Source: Propionibacteriaceae bacterium
GTDB lineage: Bacteria > Actinomycetota > Actinomycetes > Propionibacteriales > Propionibacteriaceae
Direction: 5' to 3'
Length of the DNA stretch: 33,096 bases
Assembly: GCA_009778875.1 (NCBI GenBank)
Contig: WRFI01000007.1
Location: 1-33,096 of the forward strand
Shown: positions 19,014-23,011 of the stretch, in pieces
Position numbering within the stretch: position 1 is the first letter of the stretch
How the letters are laid out: each line of letters opens with the position of its first letter
Program-made: the position numbers and the translations under genes
Notes under the pieces: generated by a model
Seen by the model: the letters and a program-made list of their open reading frames with translations, nothing else
What the model was told of the DNA's origin: nothing
Databases searched by the model: none

Positions 19014-19814
19014 CTACTCGGCCATTTCCCACATGCGCCGCAGTTCAGCCAGCTCCGGCTGGCCCGGCGCCGAGGACTCCCCCACCGTCGCGAACGTCGC
19101 CGATGATCCAAAAATGTGCCCCAACACGCGGCTGACAAGGCCTCTCTCCCCCATCGCCATGGTTATCAGGGGCACCTTGGCGTCGTCCACGCGTTCCGCC
19201 GTGGCATTCATCAACGTCGTCACGTCGGCGTCGCGGCGCGCCGTCACCGCCACCTTGACGACATCGACTTGAGCTTCCTCGATGAGCGCGAGGGTGCGGA
19301 TGATGGCGTCCTCTGAGGGTGTGCCAACCACGTCGTGCCACGAGCCGATCACCGGCACCTTGTAGTCGTGGGCGGCAGCGATCAGCCGCAGCGACGCCGG
19401 GTGACGGACCTCGACGTCAACGATTGACGCGGCATGAGCACGGATGACGGCCTGCGTGACGGCCTCATAGTTCGCGTCGCCCAATGGCGAACCATCGCCA
19501 CCCTCGGCGACGGTGCGCCAGGTGAAGATCAGCGGTTTGGGGGCGACCAGAACCCGCAGAATCGAGGCCAGGGCCACAATCCGGTCGGCCTCGGGCAGTT
19601 GCGTTATCCTCACCCCGCGGGCGATCTTCGGCTGCTCGGCCAGGTAGTCGGCCCGCCACTCGACCATTTCGGCGTCGGTGTCGGCGATTCTGATGGCCTG
19701 GTCTTGGGCCACCTTGGAGCTGGCGGCAACGATCGGCACAATCACTCGCGCCGGGCCAACGGGGTCAGGCCACCAAACCGGGGCCTCTTCGAGCGGAAAA
19801 TCTGAATCCGACAC
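19014..19814 (-). CDS. aroD: 3-dehydroquinate dehydratase, type I
   Basis: AroD removes water from 3-dehydroquinate in the shikimate pathway through a Schiff base. The 266-residue protein keeps the catalytic set of the type I class: VEWRADYL (Glu52, Arg54), FTWRT (Arg100), VDVEVR (Glu135), SWHDV (His160, general base), VVKVAVTA (Lys187, Schiff-base lysine), SRVLGHIFGS (Arg229) and SSAPGQ (248-252). The start is the GTG at 19814 with TATCCT 7 nt upstream; there is no ribosome site. Many Actinobacteria use the unrelated type II enzyme AroQ, so a type I gene is a point of interest. No other shikimate gene is in the window. It follows the sortase-like gene by 16 nt on the same strand. Confidence 0.93.
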   Translation of the reverse strand: MSDSDFPLEEAPVWWPDPVGPARVIVPIVAASSKVAQDQAIRIADTDAEMVEWRADYLAEQPKIARGVRITQLPEADRIVALASILRVLVAPKPLIFTWRTVAEGGDGSPLGDANYEAVTQAVIRAHAASIVDVEVRHPASLRLIAAAHDYKVPVIGSWHDVVGTPSEDAIIRTLALIEEAQVDVVKVAVTARRDADVTTLMNATAERVDDAKVPLITMAMGERGLVSRVLGHIFGSSATFATVGESSAPGQPELAELRRMWEMAE

Positions 19815-19830: not shown

Positions 19831-20472
19831 TCAGCGCGGGCTGGTGGCCGTCAACTTGGCGAATCCGACGGCCCGATCGGGTGACGGGCGGACGTCCTGA
19901 TTGGCGATCAGCGTCAGCCAGGTGTCGGTCGGCATGAGACCCGAGGCGCCCGGCACTGCGCCAAGCACCCAATCGTCGTCGCTTTGGACGGTCAGGTCGC
20001 GAGGCGACGTCACCAGCGTGTAGGTGTAGGTGGCCAGGCAGGTTTGCAGGGTGATTGTGTCACCGGCGTTGAGCTTCAAGATGCCGTCGAACGCCCCGCC
20101 GGCGGCTCGTTGGCCCACCACCGCCATGTTGCCGACCTGGCCCGGTGCGGCAGTTTGCTGATACCAGCCGACCCCGCCGTCAAGGGCCGCGTTCGACACA
20201 CCGGCCCGAACCGGCCAAGCCGTCGACCCCGGCAGGGTTAAGACGCCGATGGTGACGTCGGCCGCGACGGCGTGGGCGTCGGCCCCGTTGAAGCCTGGGT
20301 CCAGTTGGCAGGCCGACAGGTAGGCGCTGCTTTCGCTGGAAGCCCGGCTGGCCGCCTGAAGACCGGCCCCCCAAAACCTCCACCAGCCGAACGCCGCCGC
20401 CACGGCGAAGGCCGCCGCCACCAGCGCCACCGCCAGGCGGAAGGGCCAGCGCTTGGGTGTCGGCTCAGTCAT
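19831..20472 (-). CDS. sortase-fold membrane protein lacking catalytic His and Cys (pseudo-sortase)
   Basis: The 213-residue protein has a short cytoplasmic head, one membrane span (residues ~12-30) and an extracellular domain. Residues ~86-205 follow the class E-like sortase plan: WPVRAGVSNAALDGGVGWYQQTAAPGQVGNMAVVGQR, then GDTITLQTCLATYTYTLV, and a last strand LTLIANQDVRPSPDRAVGFAKL. In active sortases the GHR motif supplies the catalytic His and the TLTTC motif the nucleophile Cys. Here these read G-Q121-R (codon CAA) and L-I-A190 (codon GCC); only the third residue, Arg200 in PDR, is kept. The frame is open and the rest is well preserved, so this looks like a maintained non-catalytic paralogue rather than a decaying gene (inference). 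The start is supported by TAGACT 7 nt upstream. Partners are unknown; no LPXTG-type substrate was seen nearby. Confidence 0.75.
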   Translation of the reverse strand: MTEPTPKRWPFRLAVALVAAAFAVAAAFGWWRFWGAGLQAASRASSESSAYLSACQLDPGFNGADAHAVAADVTIGVLTLPGSTAWPVRAGVSNAALDGGVGWYQQTAAPGQVGNMAVVGQRAAGGAFDGILKLNAGDTITLQTCLATYTYTLVTSPRDLTVQSDDDWVLGAVPGASGLMPTDTWLTLIANQDVRPSPDRAVGFAKLTATSPR

Positions 20473-20499: not shown

Positions 20500-21330
20500 T
20501 CAGCCGTACCAGCTCAGCTCGCTGACCGAGCGCGGCGGGGACGGGGCGGCGTCGGCGTCCATGAAGGGCTTCGCACCGCCCGTCCAGCGCCTCAGGGCGT
20601 CGTCGTACATGAAGGCGCAGGGGAAAGCCGCGCCGGCGGCGCGTCTTACCAGGGCGTCGACTGGCAGCGGCGTCTGGCTGGCGCCGATCACCAGGTTGGT
20701 GACCCGCTGGGCTTTGAGCGCGCTGGGTTCCACCAGCAGGCCAGTGGCGGAAAACACCGCGCCGATCGTGGCAACAACGCGCTTGGACCAGTCATGCGGG
20801 TGGGCGTCTATCAGGTTGACGGCCAACAGCCCGCCAGATGCCAAGACACGCGAGGCGTCTTCCATGAACTCTTCACTGACAAGGGACGCCGGCACCTGAC
20901 GATGGTCGAAGGCGTCCAGGATGACAACGTCGGCGTAGGCATCGCGCATGGCGGCGATACCGGTGCGTCCGTCCTGGGCGCGAACTTTGATGCCGCTGTG
21001 CACACCCAGCGGGGCGAACTCGCGGACGGCCGCCGTGATGGCGGTGTCTGGTTCCAAGACGATCTGGGCGCTGTGCGGGCGGGTGGCGCCCACCCAGCGG
21101 GCCAGGCTCATGCCCGCACCGCCGATGTGGACGACCCGCAACCGCGCCCCATCAGGCCTGCCGGCCTGGTGGGCCCAGGCGTCAATCAGCCAGGTGATGC
21201 GCTGCATGTAGTCGAACTCCAGCCGCGCCGGGTGGGCCGGGTCAAGCCACGATTGGTCCGCGCCGTCCTTTGTCACCAGCCACGCCCCGGCGTTGTACGG
21301 ATCAGGCACCAGATAGTCGCTGCTTTGCAT
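20500..21330 (-). CDS. spermidine synthase-like protein (Rossmann methyltransferase fold)
   Basis: The chosen start is the ATG at 21330 (MQSSDYLVPDPYNAGAW), with CACAAT 6 nt upstream as a weak -10; frames extending further upstream lack a ribosome site. The 276-residue protein has the Rossmann core of the polyamine-synthase family: VVHIGGAGMSLARWV (nucleoside-binding glycines), QIVLEPD, RAQDGRTGIAAM, DVVILDAFDHRQVPASLVSEEF and LLAVNLID. In true aminopropyltransferases the region after the second acidic motif binds the polyamine; here DAFD replaces the usual DSTD-like motif, so polyamine synthesis is doubtful. Actinobacteria carry many such orphan homologues of unknown role. It is the first gene of a minus-strand run with the sortase-like gene and aroD. 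Confidence 0.75.
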   Translation of the reverse strand: MQSSDYLVPDPYNAGAWLVTKDGADQSWLDPAHPARLEFDYMQRITWLIDAWAHQAGRPDGARLRVVHIGGAGMSLARWVGATRPHSAQIVLEPDTAITAAVREFAPLGVHSGIKVRAQDGRTGIAAMRDAYADVVILDAFDHRQVPASLVSEEFMEDASRVLASGGLLAVNLIDAHPHDWSKRVVATIGAVFSATGLLVEPSALKAQRVTNLVIGASQTPLPVDALVRRAAGAAFPCAFMYDDALRRWTGGAKPFMDADAAPSPPRSVSELSWYG

Positions 21331-21400
21331 AATGCAATTGTGACACCGGACTGCCTGCCGATGACCAAGCATGCCCCACCACTCCTGATATCGCATCGTC

Positions 21401-21412: not shown

Positions 21413-23011
21413 GTGCCCATTTCTGCTCTGCCGCGACGCCTGCTGGCAGAGTTGGCTACCGCTTGGCGGGTGCGGGCCGTCCGCCAGGGTCTGTTGGGCA
21501 CGTTTCTGATCGCGGTTGGGGCCCTGTCACCGGCGTTTCTGCCGCGGGTGTCCCCCTGGTGGGTTTGGTTGACGCCCCTGCACGCCAACGGCACGGTTTG
21601 GCGCGTCGGCGGCACCTTGCTGACCATGCTGGGCGCCTTGGTGCTGGTGGACGCGTGGTTCAGGCTGCGGCCGAACAGCGCCTACGACGACGAACCGCCA
21701 CGTCCCTGGCCGGGCCTTCGCGCCAGCGTGCGCCATTGGTGGGCCGAGATCAACACGGCCGCCGCGCCAGTGGCCGCCGGCCTTAGCCAGCCGCTGGCCT
21801 GCCGGGGTTGGGCCGCCCTGTTTTGGTGGTCGCTGCCGCTGCTGGTGGCGCCGCCGGTTTTCAGCCAGGACGCCTACAGCTATGCCGCCCAGGGTTGGAT
21901 CGTTCACAACGGGCTCGACCCGTATGCCGTCGGCCCCGGCATGCTGCCCGGCGGGTTCGCCGACCAGGTGGCCAGCGAGTGGCGCATGACGCCCGCCCCC
22001 TACGGCCCGCTGTCCCTGCGCATCAGCCAGCTGCTGGTGGCGGTGTGCGGCTACTCCCCCTATCTGTCGGCCTGGGCAGAGCGCTTGCCGGCCCTGCTCG
22101 GCGTCATCATGCTGGGCATCTTCCTGCCGCGGATCGCCCGTCAAATGCGGGTGGACGAGCACTTCGCCGCCTGGTTCGCCCTGCTCAACCCGATGCTCGT
22201 CATCTCGTTCATCGGCGGCGCCCACAATGACGCGCTGATGATGGGTCTCGCCGTTGTCGGAATATGGGTCGCCGGGCTGGGACTCCAAGCCGGTTCCACC
22301 GCCCGGTCAAGCACGCTGTGGTGGCTGCTCGGCGCCGTCATCGTCGGCATCGGCGCCACCGTCAAACAGCCGGCGTTGCTGACCGCCCTGGCTCTGCCGC
22401 TGCTCACCCGTCCCTGGACATCGTGGGCCTGGCGGGACGCTCTCACGACCATCGGACGGGTGCTGGCCAGCCTGGCCACCGCCACCGCCACGTTTGTGCT
22501 TGTCAGCTTCGGTTGCCGGCTCGGTTTCGGCTGGGTCAACTCCGTCAGCGTGCCCGGCCGGTCCGTCACCGTCGCGCCCTTCACGCTGCTGGGCGTGGCT
22601 GTCGAGCACGTCGCCGGATGGTTCGGCATCGCCTTGAACCAGGCCCACACGCTCGCCATGGCACGCGGGGTCGGCATCGGGTTCGGCGTCGTCATCATCA
22701 TCTTTCTGGCGCTGACGCTGGCCCGCCGCCGTCCCATCGCCTTCGTGGCGTGGGGCTACCTGGCTGCCGCGATCACCGGCCCGGCGCTGCGCAGCTGGTA
22801 CGTCCAGTGGTCCATCACACTTCTGCCGCTGACCCACCTCAGCCGCACCATGGTGCGCGTGTCGGTGTGGGGAATCTTGGTAATGTTCGGTTTCGACGCG
22901 GTATTCATGGCGATGCGCAACTCGGCCGTGGCGGTGTGCGTGGGCGCGCTCATGGCCATGGCCTGGGTGGCCTGGAATCATCTTCCGCTGGTTAGAAGGA
23001 GCAAATCATGA
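21413..23011 (+). CDS. mptB: polyprenol-phosphomannose-dependent alpha-1,6-mannosyltransferase, MptB type
   Basis: This 532-residue integral membrane protein with about 13 spans is of the GT-C class. MptB-type enzymes extend the alpha-1,6-mannan core of lipoglycans using polyprenyl-phosphate mannose on the outer side of the membrane. Diagnostic is the loop PPVFSQDAYSYAAQGWIVHNGLDPYAVGP (the Asp after SQ is the GT-C acidic residue) and SEWRMTPAPYGPLSL; GGAHNDALMMGLAVVGIW and KQPALLTALALPLL also match. The start is GTG behind a TAGGCT box. The stop overlaps the purB ATG (ATGA). Presence of this gene implies a mannan-type cell-envelope glycolipid in the host. Confidence 0.85.
   Translation: MPISALPRRLLAELATAWRVRAVRQGLLGTFLIAVGALSPAFLPRVSPWWVWLTPLHANGTVWRVGGTLLTMLGALVLVDAWFRLRPNSAYDDEPPRPWPGLRASVRHWWAEINTAAAPVAAGLSQPLACRGWAALFWWSLPLLVAPPVFSQDAYSYAAQGWIVHNGLDPYAVGPGMLPGGFADQVASEWRMTPAPYGPLSLRISQLLVAVCGYSPYLSAWAERLPALLGVIMLGIFLPRIARQMRVDEHFAAWFALLNPMLVISFIGGAHNDALMMGLAVVGIWVAGLGLQAGSTARSSTLWWLLGAVIVGIGATVKQPALLTALALPLLTRPWTSWAWRDALTTIGRVLASLATATATFVLVSFGCRLGFGWVNSVSVPGRSVTVAPFTLLGVAVEHVAGWFGIALNQAHTLAMARGVGIGFGVVIIIFLALTLARRRPIAFVAWGYLAAAITGPALRSWYVQWSITLLPLTHLSRTMVRVSVWGILVMFGFDAVFMAMRNSAVAVCVGALMAMAWVAWNHLPLVRRSKS

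Follow-up and report, generated by a model that had tools for sequence, protein, structure and literature searches.

A class E sortase homologue of Propionibacteriaceae without catalytic His and Cys, putatively retained for peptide binding

What is a sortase kept for once its catalytic residues are gone? Sortases, which attach proteins to the bacterial cell wall, are treated as His-Cys-Arg enzymes, and Pfam-type family models still match degenerate genes as sortases. One such gene lies in the 33,096-nucleotide stretch of DNA analyzed here (the window), which is contig C7 of a Propionibacteriaceae bacterium's draft genome (2.18 Mb, 76.5% complete, 2.7% estimated contamination). A sequence-only reading had described the gene at 19831–20472 (minus strand) as an intact frame for a catalytically dead sortase. 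The open reading frame is indeed intact and encodes 213 aa, and every motif of the sortase-type order that had been listed (WPV, LDGGVGWY, TA.PGQVGN, GD.I.LQT...YTY, LTL, PDR) is found in its translation. PF04203 (Pfam Sortase) matches the product with an E-value of 2.9e-13 and passes its cut-off (50.1 bits against 26.6 bits). The top-ranked NCBIfam family is NF033747, class E sortase (E 1.3e-26), at a score of 93.8 bits that lies below the 160-bit cut-off of the family. In an AlphaFold model predicted from only 8 sequences (mean pLDDT 75.8, pTM 0.70), a transmembrane anchor (helix 9–54) is followed by a linker and a class E sortase barrel at approximately residues 69–213. A structure prediction had been proposed as a check, and the modelled fold is a sortase barrel, its best structural match being Streptomyces avermitilis sortase E (5go5; Z 18.5, 1.7 Å, 136 residues). 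Homology and this predicted barrel together confirm the assignment to the sortase superfamily, and, judged by its alignment, the product is homologous to class E sortases but lacks the catalytic His and Cys.

The alignment with relatives places Gln121 (codon CAA, 20110–20112, minus strand) at the catalytic His, as first proposed. The nucleophile had been placed one residue early, at Ala190 (19903–19905). Since LTLIANQD aligns with LTLTTCQD of intact relatives, the site is Asn191 (codon AAT, 19900–19902, minus strand), and LTL-I-A-N-QD likewise aligns with LTL-V-T-C of 5go6. The retention of Arg200 (codon CGG, 19873–19875, minus strand) is borne out by the alignment; it corresponds to Arg329 of SrtE1, which binds the backbone of the sorting signal. 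Also present is the class E substrate-recognition Tyr of the beta3/beta4 loop, Tyr104 (codon TAT, 20161–20163, minus strand), which aligns with Tyr229 of SrtE1. In S. coelicolor SrtE1, Tyr229 and Arg329 touch the LAXTG sorting signal (PMC5148588). As His and Cys are both lost, no thioacyl intermediate could form, and transpeptidation of LAXTG proteins by the window protein is predicted to be absent. Binding is another matter: going by the titles of entries 7s51 and 8t8g, Cys-to-Ala sortases have been crystallized with bound signal peptides, which argues that the Cys is dispensable for binding.

A recent loss is ruled out, as the nearest relative, 81% identical and encoded in a Propionibacteriaceae metagenome assembly (G002, WQYR01000001.1), has the same Gln and Asn. 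This assembly presumably comes from a termite gut, as its isolate series suggests. Among close relatives, G002 alone has the gene, so that Gln and Asn are conserved where the sequence-only reading had proposed to look, and no close relative with His and Cys came to light. Agreement between two separate assemblies also makes an assembly error improbable.

The degenerate genes are widespread. Profile A1, built from degenerate homologues, matched 162 of the 198 family genomes, and the triad was read in each fetched locus, with outgroups and duplicates removed before counting. At least one triad residue is lost in 70 non-redundant rows from 15 Propionibacteriaceae genera, against 72 intact rows. 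Both His and Cys are missing from 51 of the degenerate rows, and the Arg is kept in 65 of the 70. Because His-Cys-Arg is intact in all 29 further loci of a class-wide sample, one of them again from Propionibacteriaceae, triad loss appears to be confined to this family within the sampling.

In a quick tree from which the three catalytic columns were left out, the window protein falls inside a 32-row clade that has no intact member (SH-aLRT 97), nested in turn within a clade of 62 rows, of which a single member looks intact (SH-aLRT 99). This lone member, L138 (G089), has a His-Cys-Arg triad in the context TAHC, which could be re-gained or misleading. Further degenerate lineages stand apart on the tree (g7, g11, g14, g18, and g20), and at least six changes are forced on starred branches. 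A tree constrained to unite all the degenerate rows is 270 log-likelihood units worse, and the AU test rules out a single origin (p-AU 2.45e-53). These sequences thus point firmly to more than one triad loss, the exact number being unsure because the tree is a quick one and the group is defined by the trait itself.

Degenerate and intact class E sortases mostly occupy one orthologous locus, in which a spermidine-synthase-like gene is followed by srtE and then usually by pyrE and lemA; an intact paralogue lies elsewhere in a few genomes (e.g., G082, G083, G222, and G224). Of the 70 degenerate loci, 56 have the spermidine-synthase-like gene upstream and 53 have pyrE downstream, usually with lemA next; of 79 intact loci, 35 and 50 do. 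All four counts are lower bounds because the flanks are too short at some loci. In the lineage of the window, the upstream gene (20500–21396, minus strand) is retained, and aroD (19014–19814, minus strand) takes the place of the pyrE of most relatives. Both neighbors had been correctly named at the outset. The setting is not unusual for a sortase, since the same upstream gene is found ahead of intact class E sortases too. The gaps are only 27 nt (from the upstream gene to the pseudosortase ATG) and 16 nt (to aroD), which suggests that the three genes are co-transcribed. An MptB-like mannosyltransferase gene lies at 21413–23011 on the plus strand (NF038066, 142 bits against a 40-bit cut-off).

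The degenerate genes evolve like intact ones. Between the window gene and L062, dN/dS is 0.19 (NG86) or 0.095 (ML), and the neighbors give 0.16 (aroD) and 0.14 (the spermidine-synthase-like gene) by NG86. Other degenerate pairs range from 0.16 to 0.42 and intact pairs from 0.18 to 0.41. By this measure, degenerate genes are under purifying selection as intact ones are. Within the degenerate proteins, constraint is uneven: among 139 columns ranked by variability (1 being the least variable), His stands at 113 and Cys at 125, with Tyr104 at 17 and Arg200 at 23. The low conservation of the two catalytic columns is partly by construction, because the set was chosen for losing them, which does not hold for the spread of nine or ten residue types found there, Ala, Gly, Leu, Pro, Glu, and Arg among the replacements. 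Conserved among the degenerate proteins are Tyr104, Trp168, Pro174, and Arg200. As read from these columns, catalysis is freed from selection and the signal-binding Tyr104 and Arg200 are still constrained.

Could the gene nevertheless be a relic under relaxed selection, heading for loss? The catalytic columns do drift freely, and a profile search gave no convincing match in five of the seven genomes of the window's genus. In G004 (L225) and G005 (L227), the upstream gene, pyrE, and lemA are adjacent, and in G006 (L224), the upstream gene is next to pyrE, lemA being seen only where the locus extends that far; the sortase gene is missing from all three, with neither a homologue nor a gene remnant detected between the flanking genes. 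The pseudosortase is therefore dispensable in some genomes of the genus. However, reading frames are intact in almost every lineage, dN/dS resembles that of intact sortases and of the adjacent enzyme genes, four non-catalytic residues are conserved, and degenerate clades cover several genera. On balance, we consider a decaying relic unlikely.

It is also possible, with a smaller chance, that the product has become a purely structural protein of the envelope, its barrel no longer binding peptide. One indication is a Cys pair confined to degenerate homologues, Cys55 (20308–20310) and Cys145 (20038–20040, both minus strand), which occur together in 16 degenerate rows and 0 intact rows of the alignment. 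These rows belong to the window's lineage and to g12, g16, g26, and g27, and no row has Cys145 without Cys55. A disulfide between the two is plausible in an exported domain, and the pair may brace the linker against the barrel. A scarcity of sorting signals in genomes that encode only a degenerate sortase would also fit. Substrates were sought with the family models PF00746 and TIGR01167, and in the degenerate-only genomes the matches were mostly background, with convincing anchor signals few or weak, so that in nature the protein may bind something other than a sorting signal. Against a purely structural role, both Tyr104 and Arg200 are retained in the groove.

Two observations bear on whether a sorting signal is the ligand. 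In favor, the window genome (G000) encodes a 1228-aa secreted protein (contig C2, L267:5751-9437, minus strand) whose tail, LASTG-TM-KRRR, is a class E-like signal. Neither Pfam nor NCBIfam matches this protein, however, a search of 76 relatives gave no homologue, and it lies on a different contig from the pseudosortase within the same draft assembly, for which contamination is estimated at 2.7%. On the other side, two genomes with a degenerate sortase only, G095 (L253) and G090 (L254), encode wall-anchor-like tails of the form LPSAG-TM-RRR instead of LPxTG-like ones, with Ala at the Thr of the sorting signal.

Regulation of an active sortase had been among the roles first suggested; the product might also act on such a partner within one cell as a decoy or scaffold, and many degenerate genomes do have other sortases (e.g., G017, G031, and G169). 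The search for an active sortase elsewhere in the window genome, also suggested then, turned up no other Pfam sortase in this 76.5% complete draft. More telling are nine genomes at least 99% complete (G009, G032, G087, G090, G095, G107, G109, G124, and G176) in which the degenerate copy is the only Pfam sortase. A role that needs an active partner is thus excluded as a general one; it could still hold in single lineages, and its chance as the explanation is slight. An enzyme with a changed active site is slimmer still: Tyr/Ser is common to the degenerate members of g12, g14, g16, g26, and part of g27, and the window protein has Gln/Asn, but the replacements in these two columns, which are among the most variable, are too varied to favor a new chemistry.

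We are left with a class E sortase orthologue that has lost catalysis and is kept for putative peptide binding or scaffolding at the membrane, a reading to which we give a probability of about 60%. The initial idea of a pseudoenzyme kept for another role has held up, given the sortase barrel, the Gln and Asn shared with the relative, a clade of 32 rows without an intact triad, and purifying selection. Conservation of Tyr104 and Arg200 favors peptide binding, although the two may be kept for the fold alone. The pseudosortase would be membrane-anchored with the barrel exposed on the extracellular side, where the kept groove (Tyr104, Arg200, and Leu97) would hold a sorting-signal-like or other extended peptide uncut. 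It would thereby serve as a non-covalent receptor or scaffold where membrane and wall meet. Peptide binding may date back to the intact ancestor, which would account for the repeated loss of catalysis. More tentatively, and we would not bet on it, pseudosortases that arose several times from the class E sortase at one locus may form a widespread family in Propionibacteriaceae and bind the sorting signals of surface proteins uncut, for non-covalent display or retention, with some of these bacteria having no active sortase.

We found no earlier report of a pseudosortase or of a sortase without its catalytic cysteine in the open-access literature, an absence that is not proof; a search for inactive sortases led to work on Lactococcus pili. 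One bacterial family has given up catalysis several times while retaining the protein, and its degenerate members include what is probably Propionibacterium freudenreichii, known from cheese. A second, non-catalytic function of class E sortases is thereby suggested, which is directly testable where the sole sortase of a species is inactive. The case also cautions that a sortase annotation alone is insufficient for predicting wall anchoring.

Compared with characterized class E sortases (SrtE1 of Streptomyces coelicolor and SrtE of S. avermitilis, 5go5), the window protein shares the barrel fold, the N-terminal membrane anchor, the Arg, the substrate Tyr, and the overall sequence, but it lacks the His and Cys and scores below the NCBIfam threshold for class E. 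Other Propionibacteriaceae genera have intact class E sortases with the same motif order and the same place after the spermidine-synthase-like gene; these keep His-Cys-Arg, whereas the window protein keeps only the Arg. With pseudophosphatases and other pseudoenzymes it has a principle in common, namely, that the fold and the binding site are kept and the catalytic residues are gone. Those proteins have an unrelated fold, and their non-enzymatic roles have been tested, whereas that of the window protein is inferred.
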